Shown: positions 14,633 to 50,891 of the stretch, in pieces
Layout: each line of letters starts with the position of its first letter
Numbering within the stretch: position 1 is the first letter of the stretch
NCBI RefSeq assembly: GCF_014844095.1
Contig: NZ_CP062163.1
Location: 744,001 to 808,000, forward strand
Source: Brevibacillus sp. JNUCC-41
GTDB lineage: Bacteria > Bacillota > Bacilli > Bacillales > DSM-1321
DNA length: 64,000 nucleotides
Direction of reading: 5' to 3'
The notes under the pieces: generated by a model
What the model was told of the DNA's origin: nothing
What the model saw: the letters and a program-made list of their open reading frames with translations, nothing else
Database searches by the model: none
Position numbers and translations under genes: made by a program

Positions 14633-15163
14633 TTAATAGGCATTACTCTTTGTTGTTCTTGCCTCATAAAGGACACCTGAATTAGTTGCAGTATGAATGG
14701 TTAAACCAGTATATACATTTGATGATGAGTTTCGACCTAAGGCTGCCTCAGATGTTGCTGTTAATTTACCAATAGCAATTTTTTTAGATCCATTTTTAGT
14801 AAGGGATAAATTAGCATTTCTAATACTTGTTGTAGCTGACACTACCGTAGAAATAATTTTCCCTTTTGTAGTACCTTCACTGGTAATGGTTTTTGTAGTA
14901 GGTGACAATGCCGTTTTTCCTGACGCTAAGTCTCCCCATTTAGATGCTCTTGCTAAATTTGAATTACTAGAAGTACCAAAATCAACCGAATCATCAGACT
15001 CTTCTGTATCCTCCCATGCGTCGTCCCAATTCACTTGATATTCTTCAGTTAATTGTTCATTTGTTTCTTCGGCCGAAGCATTTCCCGTCATTAAAAATGG
15101 TGATACTCCTAATACTAATGCAAAACCTAAATTTGCAACCTTTTTCATTTTTATAAATCCCAT
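14633..15163 (-). CDS. Hypothetical secreted protein
   Basis: The 176-residue protein has a classic signal peptide (MKKVANLGFALVLGVSPFLM, then TGNASAEE with cleavage probably after ASA). An acidic stretch follows (DDAWEDTEESDDSVDFG), then a Ser/Thr-rich, basic C-terminal domain (ARASKWGDLASGKTAL to SNAY). An acidic pro-segment before a basic domain recalls exported peptides kept inactive until processed, but no bacteriocin family is recognised. GGAAG lies before ATG 15163; ATG 15148 is also possible. First gene of a unit with a lipoprotein and a membrane protein. Confidence 0.72.
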   Translation of the reverse strand: MGFIKMKKVANLGFALVLGVSPFLMTGNASAEETNEQLTEEYQVNWDDAWEDTEESDDSVDFGTSSNSNLARASKWGDLASGKTALSPTTKTITSEGTTKGKIISTVVSATTSIRNANLSLTKNGSKKIAIGKLTATSEAALGRNSSSNVYTGLTIHTATNSGVLYEARTTKSNAY

Positions 15164-15359
15164 TTTCTATTATCTTCCAAATACACGATATAGTATTTTA
15201 ATATAAAAATCAAATTTTTCCATTTAAGGAATACAATTACCTGTTTTTTTCGATGCATGAAAACAATAACAATAAACACTCCTCTAGGAATCAATGCACA
15301 AAAAAGAGTCCATTGTACCTAAGGTCTCTTCCATATTCTAAATTTAGCTTCTCGAAGAA

Positions 15360-15548
15360 TCATTCGTAAGTGAAAAAAATAAAATTTTTCAATACGTTAT
15401 GGGTTTCCTCTTCGGTAATCCCGATATAGCGAAGGGTGACAGAAGGATGAGATTGATGCAGAATTCGTTGGAACATTGCTATATCCTTCGTGGCTTTCTT
15501 AAAGTATGGTTGCCGACATGTTCCACGTCAGCAAACTCTGCCGCCTTA
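15360..15548 (-). pseudogene. Tyrosine recombinase (phage integrase) C-terminal remnant
   Basis: Minus-strand translation gives HVGNHTLRK and then, after a frame change, TKDIAMFQRILHQSHPSVTL followed by RYIGITEEE and a stop at 15360. This is the catalytic C-terminus of tyrosine integrases (the HTLR...RYIG pattern). The usual residues between HTLRK and the next helix are missing and the nucleophile region is incomplete. It is therefore a dead fragment marking past integration at the edge of the AT-rich islet. Confidence 0.7.
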
Positions 15549-15577
15549 TTTAGCTGCGAGAATGCTTAACTTATTGG

Positions 15578-15607
15578 AAGGGATACTAGGTTTGTAGTAT
15601 CCCTTTT
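15578..15607. terminator. Hairpin AAGGGATACT/AGTATCCCTT
   Basis: A perfect 10-bp stem with an 8-base loop; the T run is on the plus strand (TTTTTT) while the minus strand has only weak T content. It lies just after the Nudix gene stop. Confidence 0.6.
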
Positions 15608-15622
15608 TTAAGTAAGGCTTGT

Positions 15623-16072
15623 TCATGAAATATATGTCTGTCCATTTTTGTGAGTGAATGCATGGATTCCTTCTTTTTTCAATAAAACCGGCAAATACTG
15701 TGCGACCATCTCGGCAATTCCGAGATTAAGCGGATGAAGTATCCAATCAATGGATTTCCAATCAAGAATGCCTTCCCGCGTTTTTTTCGGTGTTTCATAT
15801 AGTAAATCTGCATCTGCCATATACAAATATACATATATTCCCTCCAATTCACCTTCTGGAGTTTCCCAGGTTACGGTTCCTTTAGAAAAAAAGGTCCCTA
15901 CGTCTATGCCCGTTTCCTCATATACCTCACGCTGTGCACCTATATCAGGTGTTTCACCTTTCTCGATTTTGCCCCCCACCCCGTTCCAAACACCCATAAT
16001 AGGAGCTTTCTCCCGGTTAAGCATGAGCAGTTCATTATTCTTCTTTACAAAACAAACCGTATACTTAAACAT
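15623..16072 (-). CDS. Nudix hydrolase (MutT-like)
   Basis: The 149-residue cytoplasmic protein has the complete Nudix box GGKIEKGETPDIGAQREVYE followed by ETGI (about residues 33-56), which binds Mg and cleaves nucleoside diphosphate-X bonds. The motif WNGVGGKIE is common in 8-oxo-dGTP-type MutT homologues, so nucleotide-pool cleaning is likely but not shown. Neighbours give no clue: an integrase scar on one side and the large repeat array on the other. Confidence 0.88.
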   Translation of the reverse strand: MFKYTVCFVKKNNELLMLNREKAPIMGVWNGVGGKIEKGETPDIGAQREVYEETGIDVGTFFSKGTVTWETPEGELEGIYVYLYMADADLLYETPKKTREGILDWKSIDWILHPLNLGIAEMVAQYLPVLLKKEGIHAFTHKNGQTYIS

Positions 16073-16330
16073 TATTCAAAGTGACCCCTTTATCGTTAAT
16101 TAATGTACTTCATGGCTAGGCAGCTTAATAAGAGTGATGCTAAAAAATACTTAACCCCTTTTTATAGGAAAGATCTTTGCCTAAAATCATTGGCTTTTTT
16201 CACTTCTGCTGCCTCCAAAGTATTAACACATTCTTAAATTTTAACAATGAATAAAGAATCCGTAAACGCTCTCCGCCAATGTATGAATGCACTCCCCATT
16301 AGTTCCAATACTTCTATTTTCAGCGCATAT

Positions 16331-18147
16331 ATTCGTGAAATTGAGCGGTATTACCCGAGTTTGCGATGTTTACTCGTGAGTTTGCATTTTACTCGCGAAT
16401 TCGCACTGTTTACTCGTGAATTTACGCTATTTACTCGTGAATTCATACTGTTTACTCGTGAATTTACACTGTTTACTCGTGAATGAGCTGTTTACTCGTG
16501 AATTCACACTGTTTACTCGTGAATTCGCACTGTTTACTCGTGAATTTGCGCTGTTTACTCGTGAATTCACACTGTTTACTCGTGAATTCTCATTTTACTC
16601 GTGAATCTGCATTCTTTACTCGTGAATTTGCGCTGTTTACTCGTGAATTCACACTGTTTACTCGTGAATTCTCATTTTACTCGTGAATCTGCATTCTTTA
16701 CTCGTGAATTTGCGCTGTTTACTCGTGAATTCACACTGTTTACTCGTGAATTCGCATTTTACTCGTGAATTTACGCTGTTTACTCGTGAATTCGCACAGT
16801 TTACTCGTGAGTTTGCGCTGTTTACTCGTGAATTCGCACTGTTTACTCGTGAATTCTCATTTTACTCGTGAATCTGCACTATTTACTCGTGAATTCGCGC
16901 TGTTTACTCGTGAATTCGCACTGTTTACTCGTGAATGCGCTGTTTACTCGTGAGTTTGCGCTGTTTACTCGTGAATTCGCATTTTACTCGTGAATCTGCA
17001 CTATTTACTCGTGAATTCACACTGTTTACTCGTGAATTTACGCTGTTTACTCGTGAATTTGCGCTGTTTACTCGTGAATTCACACTGTTTACTCGTGAAT
17101 TCGCATTTTACTCGTGAATTTACGCTGTTTACTCGTGAATTCGCACTGTTTACTCGTGAGTTTGCGCTGTTTACTCGTGAATTCGCACTGTTTACTCGTG
17201 AATTTACGCTATTTACTCGTGAATTCATACTGTTTACTCGTGAATTCACACTGTTTACTCGTGAATTCGCATTTTACTCGTGAATTTACGCTGTTTACTC
17301 GTGAATTCGCACTGTTTACTCGTGAGTTTGCGCTGTTTACTCGTGAATTCGCACTGTTTACTCGTGAATTCTCATTTTACTCGTGAATCTGCACTCTTTA
17401 CTCGTGAATTCGCGCTGTTTACTCGTGAATTCGCACTGTTTACTCGTGAATTCTCATTTTACTCGTGAATCTGCATTCTTTACTCGTGAGTTTGCGCTGT
17501 TTACTCGTGAATTCGCACTCTTTACTCGTGAGTTTGCGCTGTTTACTCGTGAATTCGCATTTTACTCGTGAATCTGCACTATTTACTCGTGAATTCACAC
17601 TGTTTACTCGTGAATTCACACTGTTTACTCGCGAATTCGCACTGTTTACTCGTGAATTCACGCTATTTACTCGTGAATTCGCATTTTACTCGTGAATTCG
17701 CACTGTTTACTCGTGAATTCACACTGTTTACTCGCGAATTCGCACTGTTTACTCGCGAATTCACACTGTTTACTCGTGAATTTACGCTGTTTACTCGTGA
17801 ATTCGCGCTGTTTACTCGTGAATTCGCATTTTACTCGTGAATTCGCACTGTTTACTCGTGAATTTACACTGTTTACTCGTGAATTCACGCTATTTACTCG
17901 TGAATTCGCATTTTACTCGTGAATTCATACTGTTTACTCGTGAATTCACACTGTTTACTCGCGAATTCGCACTGTTTACTCGCGAATTCACACTGTTTAC
18001 TCGTGAATTTACGCTGTTTACTCGTGAATTCGCGCTGTTTACTCGTGAATTCGCATTTTACTCGTGAATTCGCACTGTTTACTCGTGAATTTACACTGTT
18101 TACTCGTGAATTCACGCTATTTACTCGTGAGTTTGCATTTTTATCAT
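16331..18147 (-). repeat. Large array of 21-bp repeats (core TTTACTCGTGAA)
   Basis: About 85 tandem units of TTTACTCGTGAATTCGCACTG fill roughly 1.8 kb. The first 14 bases are nearly invariant. Differences fall mainly at positions 15 (C/T), 16 (G/A), 18 (A/G) and the end. Some units are 19 bp long (ending GCAT or TCAT), which changes the reading frame, so the array cannot be one protein. The first units (16331-16400) are more degenerate, as expected of an older edge. It lies between the Nudix promoter and the P450 terminator. The complementary core TTCACGAGTAAA recurs at 32228 and 50577. Confidence 0.95.
17692..18145 (-). repeat. Higher-order duplication inside the 21-bp array
   Basis: Segment 17692-17918 (227 bp) is repeated almost base for base at 17919-18145, including its rare CGCGAA variants and the placement of the 19-bp units. 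This shows recent block duplication rather than single-unit growth. Confidence 0.85.
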
Positions 18148-18163
18148 TTCATGCATAAAGAAA

Positions 18164-18189
18164 GCAGCGATTCCCTTAAGAATCGCTGC
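18164..18189 (-). terminator. Terminator of the P450 gene
   Basis: GCAGCGATTC/GAATCGCTGC stem followed on the minus strand by TTTCTTTATG. It separates the P450 transcript from the repeat array. Confidence 0.85.
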
Positions 18190-18198
18190 ACCTCCTAT

Positions 18199-21100
18199 TT
18201 ATGCTCCTGCCCAAACATCTTTGGCATATCTGCCATTTTCCTCTAATGATTGCAGCCATACTGTGGCTTCTTCTTTAGATGTTTGATAGAAATGCATATA
18301 GCTTTCGATTAGTGTTCGTTCAACATCGGGTGCCATTTTGCTTCCGTCTCCGCAGATGTATAGGTGCCCGCCTTCTTTTAATAAAGGAAGGATGTCTTGG
18401 GCGTTTTCCGCTAATCGGTTCTGGACATATGTTTTTTCTTGACCGGGACATCTGGAGTAAGCGGTGTGCAGTGTTACAAGGCCTTCTTGTTCGGCTTGCA
18501 CGAGTTCTTCTTGATAGAGGAAATCGTGTTCCGGATTACGGCATCCAAAGTAAAGGTGAGCAGCCCCTAAAGTTTCACCTTTTTCTTTCAAAGCGCGGCG
18601 TGCCTGTATGAATCCCCTGAATGGTGCAATTCCTGTCCCAGGGCCAATCATGATGATTGGTTTTCCTGTTTTCTCTGGAAGTTGGAAGTTGGATAGCGGC
18701 GTATTGATAAAGCAGGCTATTTTGTCTCCTTGGGAGCGTTCTGCCAAATAATTCGATGCAATTCCTTTGTATTCCCCGTTTCCGCTCAAGGCTTCTCCAC
18801 GGACGACGCTGACGGTGATGCTTGCTTCTCCTTCTTTGTGGAGTGGTGAGCTTGAGATAGAATAGTATCTGGCTTTTAAAGGTGGCAGTAAAGCCAAGAA
18901 ACGTTCAAATGGGATATCACATGCAGGATACTTTTCTATAAGATCAAGCATGGTTATGCGCTTGTTCAGGATTTCTTGTTTATAGGTACTGTCCAAAAGA
19001 AGATCTTCAAGTTCTTTTACATGCGGAGGACATACCGTATGAGTGGCAAGCGCCCGAATTTGAGACCGGGTGGCGGGTTCTTGGAACTCCACATGGTTTG
19101 ATAGTAACTCTTCTAGTTTTACCGGTTTTCCTGTAGGAAGATGGGCAGCTTTTCCGGAATCCCCAGTCAGATTCACGTAATCTTGACCGTTCAGGTTAAA
19201 TCGACTGAGCACTCGCTCGACAAGTTCCGATGGATTTTGCGGAAGTACACCGAGATGATCGCCTTCCTGATAGTGTATTCCCTCTGGCAGAGTTAATTCT
19301 ATATGCCGTGTGCTTCTTCCGCTATCTGCATGTTGTAATTCTACATTCCTTTTTACGATGGAAGTAAAAGCATGATGGGTGCGGGCAAGTGGTGTGCCGC
19401 TCACATCGCTTACGAAGTTCATTGTAATCGAGCTGACTGCCCGATCATTCCTATCCACTTCTATGTTCAGGCTTTTGGCAAGATTCGGCCAAAGTGCTTC
19501 TGTCCATTTCTCGTAATCCCCTTCAAAGTCATCGCTTGCATCTCCATAGCCTGTTTCCGACAGCCTTACTGCTCCTTTTTGTTCCAGCCGCTCATCAATG
19601 AGGATTGGAATGCGTTGGTACGTATTGGCCCAATTGCGGTCCCCGCAGCCGAAGATCGCATATTGAACACCATCCAATGTGTTACCCTTGCTTTCCTTCA
19701 GCCATGAAACGAAGTCACCTGCATTATCCGGTGGATTTCCATTATAAGATGCCGTGACTATAAGAACAGCTCCTTCTTTGGGAAGCCGATCGGTGTAATC
19801 ATTTAACGGGGCAACCTTAGCATTGAAGCCTTGTCGCTTCCCTGTTTCGGCAAGGTCACGAGCAACCCCTTCCGCTGTTCCCATATTTGATCCAAACAGG
19901 ACGAGTAATGGTGTCCCATGTGCTGATTCGCTTGGAGATACCGTGGCTCCTTTGTCCGCTGGCTTTGATTCCGGAGGAGCAGCGGTAAATGACATCACCG
20001 GCTTCCTCGGTGAAACGCGCATGGTCAATCCGTCCGGTTTGAGAGTCAAAGTTTCTTTAACATCCAATTGATATTCTTCATGATCAATCAAGTCAAAGTG
20101 CTGTAAAACCATACCAAGCACCAGTGTCGCTTCATGAAGGGCAAACTGCTGTCCGATACAGGCGCGCTGCCCGTTTCCAAACGGTTTATAAGCATGATAA
20201 GGGATGGAATCCAAATCCTCGAACCGCTCTGGAATGAACGATTCAACATCATCGCCCCAAACGGATGGATCACGGTGTAGTTCGGGAATGAGCAGCGAGA
20301 ACACATCACCTTTCTTCACATTATATTTTCCACCCAGCATGGTATCTTCTTTCGCATAAACGGAAAATGCCGGAGCAGTCGGCCACAGACGAAGCGTTTC
20401 ATTCAGCACCATCCTTACATATTTCAGCTTTTTCACTTGTTTGTAATCAGGAACATCATCACCCAGCACTTCATCGACTTCCTGCTGCGCTTTTTTTAAC
20501 TTATCTCTGTTATTCATGAGGAAATAGATGGCGAACGATAGGAGACCGCTCGTCGTTTCATGCCCAGCTATTAAAAAGGTAATGATTTGAAAGCGAATAT
20601 TTTCATCATCAAGTGATACGCCGGTTTCGGGATCGACTCCTTTCAACATATGAGAAAGAAGGTCATCTTCTCCCTGATCACCATTTTGTTTTCTCTCAGC
20701 AATCATTTCATCCACTAGAGAGAACATATATTGAATGTCTTCCCTGAATTGTTTTTTAGATTTGATCATCAGTTTATCTTGGATGCCAAGCCGCTGCGTT
20801 TGGCTCATCGCTTCATCCAACGCACGCACCATACTGTTGACAAATGGATGGGTGGTCTCCCGATAAAAGCTGTTAAAACGGTAATTGAACCCGCAGAGTC
20901 CGATCGTATCCAAGGTCAATCGTGTCATATCTTCAGGAACATCTATCCCATCAGCCGGATTCAGGCGGGCCCATTTTTGAATGAGTTGGATAGCAAGATC
21001 CACCATTTTGGCATGATATCCCTTCATTGCTTGCTGGCTAAAGCTTGGCAGCAGGATGTTATGGGCCTTTTTCCAATTCGGCTCCGTCGTTTCACTTGTG

Positions 21101-32227: not shown

Positions 32228-32302
32228 TCACGAGTAAATGCGTGAAACTCACGAGTAAACCTGCCAAATTCACGAGTAAATCTGCCAAACTTACGAGTAA
32301 TT
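32228..32302 (+). repeat. Four 21-bp-spaced copies of the ACGAGTAA core in the metN leader
   Basis: Cores begin at 32230, 32251, 32272 and 32293, exactly 21 bp apart. The spacers (TGCGTGAAACTC, CCTGCCAAATTC, TCTGCCAAACTT) differ from those of the large array. They lie in the transcribed leader between the S-box terminator and metN. Confidence 0.85.
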
Positions 32303-40958: not shown

Positions 40959-41225
40959 TTATAGATGTGAAGCCAATTTCGATGTGATTTCAGGAATGCT
41001 CATCATGTTTTCCAGTGTGACGATCGTCCGGGTTCCATCATCCAGCTGACCGACAATATCCGCCGCTCCCAGGTAAATATCAGCCTTAACCGTTTTTGCG
41101 GATGCCAGATCCGTATGATCCACCTCGGCTGTCTTACCCATTTCCGTCAATGCTTTCTTCACATTCATCTCCATGATGAAGCTGCTTCCCAATCCATTTC
41201 CGCATACTACCATGATTTTCTTCAT
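40959..41225 (-). CDS. ulaB: PTS IIB component, copy A
   Basis: The 88-residue lactose/ascorbate-type IIB domain has the phosphorylated Cys8 in VVCGNGLGSS. It takes phosphate from an EIIA domain and gives it to the sugar at IIC. It is nearly identical to the next gene over about 240 bp, showing tandem duplication. AAGGAGAG precedes the ATG. Confidence 0.88.
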   Translation of the reverse strand: MKKIMVVCGNGLGSSFIMEMNVKKALTEMGKTAEVDHTDLASAKTVKADIYLGAADIVGQLDDGTRTIVTLENMMSIPEITSKLASHL

Positions 41226-41242
41226 ATCAATCTCTCCTTTTT

Positions 41243-41509
41243 TTATCCTACATGCTTTTCCAATTTAGATTTGATTTCAGGGATGCTCATCATGTTCTCC
41301 AGTGTGACGATCGTCCGGGTTCCATCATCCAGCTGACCGACAATATCCGCCGCTCCCAGGTAAATATCAGCCTTAACCGTTTTTGCGGATGCCAGATCCG
41401 TATGATCCACCTCGGCTGTCTTACCCATTTCCGTCAATGCTTTCTTCACATTCATCTCCATGATGAAGCTGCTTCCCAATCCGTTTCCGCATACTACCAT
41501 GATTTTCAT
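41243..41509 (-). CDS. ulaB: PTS IIB component, copy B (tandem duplicate)
   Basis: Eighty-eight residues with Cys7 in VVCGNGLGSS. It differs from copy A mainly at the ends: one Lys fewer at the start, and IKSKLEKHVG instead of ITSKLASHL. Its ATG overlaps the regulator stop by 4 bases. Only about three silent base differences are seen in the shared stretch, so the duplication is recent or kept alike by gene conversion. Confidence 0.88.
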   Translation of the reverse strand: MKIMVVCGNGLGSSFIMEMNVKKALTEMGKTAEVDHTDLASAKTVKADIYLGAADIVGQLDDGTRTIVTLENMMSIPEIKSKLEKHVG

Positions 41510-49613: not shown

Positions 49614-49949
49614 ATGAGAAATGAAAAACTCAAAAAAGAAGGCCATTACAAAGGAAAAGACCACGGCTCACACCATCGTGGACCAAAAACATTTCGCCGC
49701 GTAAGGGCCATTGCTTTTTTAGAAATGATGAATATTAAACGTTCAACCATTAAGGAACAGTTAGATAAACCAGAGTTTCAATCCATTAATCAAATCTTAG
49801 TCGGTGAATTGAAGGCCATTGATATGTTAATTAACGAATTCATTCAATTATTTGAAATACAAGAAAATGAAACAGCCGATAAGAAAAGTGAAGAAAGAGA
49901 AACTTCCAATAATGATGAGAAAGGATTGGAAATGAATGAAACAAATTAA
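49614..49949 (+). CDS. Hypothetical protein coupled to an O-methyltransferase
   Basis: The 111-residue hydrophilic protein starts with a basic, His-rich segment (KKEGHYKGKDHGSHHRG), then RRVRAIAFLEMMNIKRSTIK and a helical core (QSINQILVGELKAIDMLINE), and ends in an acidic tail. The ATG at 49614 follows AAGGGGG. It overlaps the O-methyltransferase start by 14 bp, so the two are coupled. No family recognised; a DNA- or RNA-binding partner is possible but unproven. Confidence 0.75.
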   Translation: MRNEKLKKEGHYKGKDHGSHHRGPKTFRRVRAIAFLEMMNIKRSTIKEQLDKPEFQSINQILVGELKAIDMLINEFIQLFEIQENETADKKSEERETSNNDEKGLEMNETN

Positions 49950-50574
49950 CAGTTATATCGATTCAGTATTTTATACAAAAGATCCCCTATTGGAAGAAGT
50001 CATTACGTCCATACAAGAAAACGGAATGCCGTCCATATCGGTATCCCCCTCATCCGGGAAACTTCTTACAATGCTTGTATCCATTTCAGGGGCTAAAAAT
50101 GTTTTGGAAATAGGGGCTCTTGGGGGCTATAGCGGGATTTGCCTTGCCAAGGGATTCGGCAGCGAAGGAACATTAACCTCCCTTGAATTAAAGGAGGATT
50201 ACGCAAAGTTAGCTTATGGCAATCTATCCAAAGCCGGCTTTGGCGATCAAGTATCATATATGACCGGAGCAGCTCTGCAAAGCCTTGAAAAACTCGTTCA
50301 GGATAACAAGAAATTTGATTTTTTCTTTATAGATGCCGACAAGGACAATTATGAAAATTACCTGCAATATTGCATTAAGCTGGCGGAACCTGGTGCTTTG
50401 ATCGTCATGGATAACGTACTTGCGAGGGGCAGTGTCGCATATCCGGATGCTGTACCTGAACGTCACACTGCATTCATGAAGGCATTCAATGAAACGGTCG
50501 CCAAACACCCTCAACTGGAATCCGTGCTCATTCCGATCGGTGATGGGCTGACTCTTTCAAAGGTAAGTGCTTAA
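49936..50574 (+). CDS. SAM-dependent O-methyltransferase, class I family 3
   Basis: The 212-residue protein has the SAM-binding motif VLEIGALGGYSGI near 57 and the metal/catalytic motif FIDADKDNYENYL near 132, with MDNVLARG following. It resembles caffeoyl-CoA and catechol O-methyltransferases. Substrate unknown. It is coupled to the small upstream gene and followed directly by a repeat array. Confidence 0.9.
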   Translation: MKQINSYIDSVFYTKDPLLEEVITSIQENGMPSISVSPSSGKLLTMLVSISGAKNVLEIGALGGYSGICLAKGFGSEGTLTSLELKEDYAKLAYGNLSKAGFGDQVSYMTGAALQSLEKLVQDNKKFDFFFIDADKDNYENYLQYCIKLAEPGALIVMDNVLARGSVAYPDAVPERHTAFMKAFNETVAKHPQLESVLIPIGDGLTLSKVSA

Positions 50575-50576
50575 TC

Positions 50577-50768
50577 TCACGAGTAATGGGCTAATCAAGT
50601 AAATGGCGAATTCACGAGTAAAACAGCCAAATTCACGAGTAAAATAGCTATATTCACGAGTAAATGGCGAATTCACGAGTAAATTGCTCAATCTCACGAG
50701 TAAAATAGCTATATTCACGAGTAAATTGTTCAATCTCACGAGTAAAACAGCTAAATTCACGAGTAAAG
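50577..50768 (+). repeat. Second 21-bp-phased array (ten ACGAGTAA cores)
   Basis: Cores begin at 50579, about 50596 (degenerate), 50614, 50635, 50656, 50675, 50696, 50717, 50738 and 50759. Most steps are 21 bp, one is 19 bp. Spacers (AACAGCCAAATT, AATAGCTATATT, TTGCTCAATCT) differ from the large array. The first core overlaps the end of the methyltransferase gene. Confidence 0.88.
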
Positions 50769-50891
50769 TTGCGAACTATCGCCCAAACTCTCGTATTTAT
50801 CGCCTAAATATCCTTTTCATGAAGAAAAATGAAATGAATTTTTATAATCTTGAATGAAAATGATTTTTATTATCAATAATAAAAAGAAAGA

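Follow-up and report, generated by a model that had tools for sequence, protein, structure and literature searches.

A family of oriented 21-bp repeat arrays with lineage-specific cores in the Peribacillus simplex clade

Between a NUDIX-domain gene and a gene for a fused cytochrome P450 and reductase lies a long array of short direct repeats, and the question it raises is whether such an array encodes a protein, acts as RNA, belongs to a mobile element, has expanded on its own account or serves as a platform for a bound protein. The window, by which we mean the whole stretch of 64,000 nucleotides that was analysed, represents positions 744001-808000 of a contig of 5,490,698 bp on which dnaA lies at 1,814,339-1,815,685; this genome is referred to as G000. 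A first-pass annotation of the window had likened the design of the array to that of arrays bound by a protein, and the results below, which derive from sequence comparison, are consistent with a bound protein.

The main array and the anatomy of its unit

Within 16331-18150 there are 86 matches to ACTCG[TC]GA, which constitute the main array (Table 1), and of the 85 spacings between them 68 measure 21 bp and 17 measure 19 bp. TRF, run on the window, reports a repeat of period 21 in 86 copies at 16367-18137. About 85 phased 21-bp repeats had been proposed at 16331-18147, and the 86 cores bear this out. The annotation had further held that the 19-bp units break any reading frame and that a terminator separates the array from the P450 gene; both points are supported, the former by the 17 spacings of 19 bp and the latter by a hairpin with a T-run, a probable terminator, at that place. 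The main array is non-coding because the 19-bp units shift the frame, and a protein-coding repeat is ruled out on this ground and by the TAA that every unit contains in one frame. The earlier view that the array is neither a protein nor an ordinary 3' UTR is thus supported, the locus being a phased non-coding array. A search of Rfam with window positions 15000-19000 returned no family above threshold, the best being SNORD41 at 25.9 bits against 41.

Table 1. Positions in the window of the repeat arrays and of the features beside them.
Feature	Position	Strand	Remarks
NUDIX-domain gene	15623..16072	-	Downstream neighbour of the main array; bait for the matching place in 36 Peribacillus genomes
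Main array, 86 cores	16331..18137	-	Minus-strand TTCACGAGTAAA, same sense as the P450 gene upstream; on the leading strand
Predicted intrinsic terminator of the P450 gene (probable)	about 18155..18189	-	Hairpin with T-run, between gene and array
Fused cytochrome P450 / reductase gene, 1055 aa	18199..21366	-	Pfam p450, Flavodoxin_1, FAD_binding_1, NAD_binding_1; upstream neighbour of the main array
Second array, 3-4 units	32228..32300	+	Matching place in P. simplex RUG2-6 (L063) also has an array
O-methyltransferase gene	49936..50574	+	Upstream of the third array
Third array, 9 units (first with mismatches)	50576..50772	+	Starts 1 nt past the stop codon of the O-methyltransferase gene

Each unit consists of RAAYTCACGAGTAAA, 15 bp long, and six GC-rich positions whose bases at different loci are statistically independent, giving the consensus YTCACGAGTAAA NNNNNN RAA, in which Y is T or C and R is mostly A or G. 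Thirteen positions are occupied by one base in 95-99% of cases (889 units, the main window array being left out). Across 97 public loci and the window, 957 spacings are of 21 bp, 85 of 19 bp, 27 of 20 bp and 17 of 18 bp, and the 18-20 bp class, about 11% of short spacings, is off helical phase. Units were detected with at most two mismatches in 12, and few slots fail this threshold, 42-bp spacings numbering 15 and 21-bp spacings 957. Long arrays are bordered by decayed units, and where an array is short, one to three units are left, partly decayed.

The core and the spacer differ greatly in evolutionary rate. Mismatch between arrays, measured on 1276 21-bp units from 137 arrays, two of them from Nostoc, is 0.6-10.3% in the 13 constrained columns, 45% in the two R/Y columns and 65-73% across the six bases of the spacer; the two Nostoc loci also enter the spacing counts and the unit consensus, and are absent from the locus clustering described below. 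The six N positions are 66% GC against 36% in intergenic DNA, and between loci of G000, G010, G020, G025 and G019 they differ as often as independent draws would, or slightly more often. Inside one array spacers are more alike, and more so at even than at odd distances, which amounts to a 42-bp step; they also recur, with 364 distinct spacers among the 1276 units. The junction GAAC, in which R is G and Y is C, is rare (32 cases against about 95 under independence). Where the annotation had described a constant core and a variable 7-base remainder, the near-constant core stands, but the freely variable part over all arrays is six bases (positions 13-18 from Y), with two further positions that are R or Y. 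A simple repeat free of sequence constraint, also entertained there, is at variance with these different rates and with the shifted cores of three relatives.

Predicted curvature, from a wedge-parameter model, lies at a mean percentile of 0.967 for 84 arrays when set against repeats with permuted unit columns, and 79% of the arrays exceed the 95th percentile. Spacer composition contributes little to this value, and the array DNA is accordingly predicted, within the terms of the model, to be curved.

Arrays along the chromosome and among relatives

The main array is one of 31 arrays of at least three units in G000, which hold 525 units in 11.1 kb and were gathered by searching for words, with a covariance model built on sequence only and from fetched stretches; within one genome, array length spans 3-87 units. 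This search scored 150 of 1627 candidates, and the completeness of the list rests on the placement of exact cores. Exact TTCACGAGTAAA occurs 244 times, far more often than chance would give, against once for the word read backwards; 242 of these copies lie in arrays or at most 60 bp away (two sites were not located), and all 153 exact copies of ACTCACGAGTAAA lie in arrays or within 60 bp. Solitary sites are therefore practically absent, and the list is near complete. The first-pass annotation had reasoned that a chance microsatellite would leave cores scattered at random, or an array without counterpart in close relatives. The concentration of cores in arrays and their biased orientation contradict random scatter, and arrays are kept at the same loci in close relatives. 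Thirteen control stretches of G000 (260 kb) contained no array of period 17-23, and 400 kb sampled from the array-free relative G009 gave one weak AT-rich match and no other 21-bp arrays. Along the chromosome, the left arm (replichore) carries 24 of the 31 arrays, and the terminus-proximal third only three (p=0.004, the terminus being taken as opposite dnaA).

Other repeats were observed alongside. An intergenic repeat with 20-bp units and a core like TTTCGGAGATATA, similar in design and placed past a gene end, has 7-8 copies at L165:15306-15461 (about 606.3 kb in G000) and three near position 1702 of L103, and was found in 2 of 368 sequences. In Peribacillus sp. Bi96 (L126:4099-5074), the starts of five short arrays, each of 4-6 units, are spaced by 205-247 bp, giving a composite higher-order repeat. 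Elsewhere in the window (40973-41507), a 287-bp tandem duplication with 97% matches has given two adjacent 88-aa PTS IIB genes, which sit between a PTS permease gene and a PRD regulator.

The array family marks the P. simplex clade, being present in all 21 genomes examined, and 15 other Peribacillus are at background. These 15 species, whose DnaA is at most 92% identical to that of G000, have 0-3 copies of the common word; in the other 21, with DnaA 99-100% identical, common and shifted words together number at least nine. The dnaA gene of G014 is in pieces (C1:1009142-1010485) that are 88-99% identical, probably through sequencing errors. A dialect-tolerant three-unit pattern matched 5 of 397 genomes of the order, all of the window's own genus, and a two-unit common-core pattern likewise matched 5 of the 397. 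Some members of the clade have few cores or arrays, G035 having eight copies of the common word and G025 38 units in seven mixed arrays, so long arrays are not indispensable.

In a contig collection, two exact T-type cores picked out 97 stretches, 95 of them from Peribacillus or Bacillus sp. BA3 / ISL-34 and two from Nostoc. The Nostoc loci (L077:5790-6032 and L148:2655-2897) carry their own 21-bp direct repeat, GACTCRTTCACGAGTATCAAA, beside an apparent O-methyltransferase gene; the 10-12 bases that this repeat has in common with the Peribacillus core may be a coincidence. Contamination was rejected as their source: the open reading frames look cyanobacterial by eye, and among the matches listed the overlap with Peribacillus loci is the repeat itself. 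A mobile element was considered and is weakened as an explanation, the two-unit common-core pattern having zero matches in viral contigs and blastn of the main array against phages and 72,556 plasmid records giving no match, a result in which the low-complexity filter may hide repeats.

Recurrence at the same places was assessed by grouping 154 arrays from named genomes, G000 and G010 into 41 locus clusters, of which 30 have at least two members and 11 are single, so that sharing is not demonstrated for every site. Some P. butanolivorans arrays are counted twice among the 154, G010 and the named record looking like one assembly (for example L091/L240, L128/L243 and L150/L247); this joins existing clusters and may turn a one-member cluster into a two-member one. 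The clusters are single-linkage, in which neighbouring arrays may be lumped, and usable gene context was available for 38 of the 41. In G010, 11 of 17 arrays have both flanks in array-bearing loci of other genomes.

The locus of the main array illustrates how copy number varies. A NUDIX gene of at least 74% identity is found in 16 of 36 genomes, G000 included, and all 16 loci have a core match (11 bases, one mismatch allowed), from one to more than 60; upstream of the gene lie 1 to 87 units depending on the species. Four species with the gene at 61-67% identity, among them G010, have no such match at that locus, and G010 has no array there. The comparison excludes G012, G013, G014 and G036, which belong to the array clade and have no NUDIX gene above 44% identity. 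For G030 (L184) the NUDIX side is shared, and the far flank matched two other species, not the window, among the matches listed.

Orientation and core dialects

Arrays lie mostly downstream of genes, convergent gaps being favoured and divergent ones avoided. Counted as one vote per cluster, 13 arrays are in convergent and 3 in divergent gaps, against a background of 42 and 82 (p=0.0006), in which array-bearing gaps are included and genes were called by a home-made ORF scorer. Between tandem gene pairs 18 are sense and 4 antisense (one vote per cluster, 38 of 41 clusters, p=0.004), and the tandem gaps of G000 show 16 sense against 3 antisense. The stop codon of a NERD-domain gene (L157:9687-10658 and the matching loci of several species) lies inside the first core of the adjacent array, which thereby encodes the last residues. 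Placement linked to terminators was rejected, terminators before arrays (9 of 22) not being enriched relative to 114 of 259.

With respect to replication, 23 of 31 arrays in G000 are on the leading strand, against 618 of 822 genes (p=0.84), a share no higher than that of genes, so that polarity there may only follow the genes. G020 has 27 of 28 arrays on the leading strand against 156 of 223 genes (p=0.0008), and G025 five of seven. Arrays in convergent gaps are informative because gene sense cannot dictate their orientation, and they follow the leading strand in 11 of 11 cases in G020 and 7 of 10 in G000, or 18 of 21 when pooled, shared loci not being independent. Array polarity may follow gene sense or replication, both being possible.

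Three relatives have a shifted core, GGCGAG in G020 and G037 and CACGAAT in G019. Counted over whole genomes, AATTGGCGAGTAAA occurs 129 times in G020, 167 times in G037 and never in G000, and AAYTCACGAATAAA 186 times in G019 and twice in G000; the common T-type word has 5, 3 and 28 copies in G020, G037 and G019, respectively. At the NUDIX locus, G020 and G037 have AATTGGCGAGTAAA units, with one CTCGCGAG and one TTCACGAG unit at the edges in G020, and G019 has CACGAATAAA units, a word with 186 copies in its genome and two in G000. The pieces of the window locus that align between G020 and G037 are 74-87% identical. The data for G037 consist of genome counts and one locus, and those for G019 of nine arrays that were read.

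The sample for G020 comprises 24 stretches picked by the shifted word, which gave 28 arrays of at least three units and from which arrays without that word would be missed; one picked place, 139526, holds no array of three units. Of these 135 units, 95% carry G at position 4 and 76% carry it at position 3. The shift can be called general because the common word has only five copies genome-wide, the stretches themselves having been picked by the shifted word. Despite the shared core shift, spacer identity between loci is 26-45% and mismatch is that of independence.

A dnaA tree groups G019, G020, G037, G024 and G025 in a single subclade with support 1.00. Since G010 falls outside the remaining array species and has the common core, that form of the core is probably ancestral. 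The core of G025 differs by locus, mismatch at position 4 being 0.50 between and 0.08 within loci (22 units), as would be expected if a common constraint had weakened. Because the shift in G020 spans separate loci whose spacers are not shared, the dialects argue for recognition by a trans-acting factor, and not for slippage or copying alone. Copying between loci is disfavoured because spacers would travel along with the cores, unless they mutate far faster than the flanks.

Known repeat systems and the explanations considered

Several familiar systems share part of this design. In plasmid iterons and centromere repeats, Rep or Par binds cooperatively to direct repeats whose length of about 17-22 bp comes close to two turns of the helix; the Peribacillus arrays also consist of direct repeats with nearly that period (957 spacings of 21 bp), but they are chromosomal and occupy many loci, 31 of them on the dnaA-bearing 5.49-Mb contig, and neither Rep nor Par was found among the eight window proteins scanned. 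Minisatellites (VNTR, MIRU) are intergenic, tandem and variable in copy number, as are the arrays, whose core and spacer nevertheless evolve separately and which show orientation bias, dialects and no single sites. The eukaryotic CENP-B box satellites of tandem units with a conserved protein-binding core, and the Sal boxes, which are oriented arrays downstream of a gene, offer an analogy only, the Peribacillus arrays being bacterial and far smaller, and their partner putative. CRISPR repeats are separated by unique spacers of about 26-72 bp, whereas the spacer here is 6 bp and recurs. Motifs of the KOPS/SRS type rise in density or skew towards the terminus, where G000 arrays are sparse (3 of 31 in the terminus-proximal third); in orientation, the leading-strand share varies from 27/28 in G020 to 5/7 in G025 and 23/31 in G000, the last equal to that of genes.

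A literature search for the repeats and their design, with most subscription journals outside its coverage, yielded no description among the matches listed. Neisseriaceae DUS are reported to have a short core that is conserved within species, with lineage variants that follow phylogeny (PMC3630211); the Peribacillus core also has lineage-specific dialects, but DUS number thousands of copies per genome, against some 30 tandem loci and essentially no solitary sites. REPs are reported to co-evolve with a trans-acting protein, the RAYT transposase (PMC2817692). Like the arrays, REP/BIME elements are high-copy, extragenic and species-specific; they are, however, palindromic and alternate in orientation within BIMEs, whereas the arrays are one-orientation direct repeats with a non-palindromic, 21-bp phased unit and a hypervariable 6-bp spacer. 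The sole inverted repeat that a palindrome check of RAAYTCACGAGTAAA-N6 brought out is ACTC AC GAGT, interrupted, with 4-bp arms and present in C-type units, and in the fetched stretches of G000 no array adjoins opposite-strand units, as alternation of the REP/BIME type would have it. Among the matches listed, DUS dialects (PMC3630211) and RAYT-REP pairs (PMC2817692) are the nearest published parallels of co-evolution.

The best reading, which we regard as an evenly balanced call, is that the arrays are oriented, phased chromosomal binding platforms for one putative clade-specific, co-evolving factor, which we infer to exist and to bind DNA. Each unit would be a 15-bp site for this factor, with RAAYTCACGAGTAAA as the site in most species, and the 21-bp step would bring successive sites onto one face of a helix for which curvature is predicted from A-tracts that recur at about every turn. 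Binding would probably be cooperative, since arrays rather than single sites are kept. Copy number would shift through slippage or unequal recombination and edge units would decay, while the putative factor would hold the core fixed and leave the six-base spacer free to drift. Its preference would have changed in the lineage of G019, G020 and G037, and the cores would have followed at separate loci. That the arrays lie 3' of genes and point along transcription or replication suggests a polar role, exercised at gene ends or on the replication path; machinery travelling from origin to terminus might meet them as a roadblock, boundary or topological anchor.

The main rival, which we consider doubtful, is a selfish expansion driven by an enzyme: a clade-specific nuclease, nickase or recombinase would read the core and trigger tandem duplication. 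Amplification would then be limited to units whose core is intact, dialects would follow the enzyme and no benefit to the host would be needed. Core constraint, dialects, the lack of solitary sites, plastic copy number and degenerate edges would all be accounted for, and the reported co-evolution of RAYT transposases and REPs (PMC2817692) provides a parallel. Loci nevertheless recur between species (30 of 41 clusters with at least two members), the viral-contig pattern search and the phage and plasmid blastn were empty, within the limits of a low-complexity filter that may hide repeats, and such an enzyme alone leaves 21-bp phasing, curvature and the avoidance of divergent gaps unexplained. 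A neutral minisatellite, spread by replication slippage with neither factor nor function, would fit the highly variable copy number at one locus, the decaying edges and the likeness of spacers within arrays, greatest at even distances; yet slippage would treat core and spacer equally, whereas spacers are independent between loci and the core is near-fixed, and dialect shifts common to separate loci need a shared agent, so that this explanation is disfavoured as most improbable.

Two further explanations look to RNA and to DNA topology. If read-through transcribes the arrays, their RNA could serve as a 3' structure, as an attenuator or as a sponge that takes up a small RNA or an RNA-binding protein, and the sense orientation of arrays to the upstream gene agrees with this, as would, on reasoning, Y and R positions that tolerate G-U wobble. 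Eight RNA folds gave results that are inconsistent between arrays and strands: compared with shuffles, two sense arrays fold better (L138, z -4.6; L176, z -6.2), but four others reach -1.4 to -2.5, and the main array has -0.9 in the sense and -6.2 in the antisense direction. Neighbouring spacers do not pair better than spacers taken from other arrays, and RNA structure through spacer pairing was rejected for lack of any excess; together with the absence of an Rfam family over threshold in window 15000-19000 and the convergent arrays of G020, all of which follow replication, this makes a role at the RNA level quite unlikely. Convergent enrichment, divergent depletion and predicted curvature would suit topological elements like BIME-2 of E. 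coli, for which such a role is known, with gyrase or a universal nucleoid protein being loaded at places of transcription-driven positive supercoiling. Neither the restriction to one clade nor the dialect shifts would follow readily from a universal enzyme, and we judge this very unlikely.

The binding-platform reading may be carried further, to a proposal that we put forward only tentatively and think rather unlikely as a whole, namely that these dispersed, oriented satellite arrays would be polar protein boundaries on the path from origin to terminus, comparable in function to centromeric satellites or CTCF sites; a single rapidly changing DNA-binding protein, dedicated to them, would evolve in step with the arrays, and species would differ by a chromosome-wide dialect. 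The dialect shift over separate loci with unshared spacers represents a natural experiment on the co-evolution of protein and site in bacteria. If the factor is found, the arrays would constitute an unstudied layer of chromosome organisation in common soil bacteria, and swapping of dialects would provide a direct test of how binding arrays evolve.
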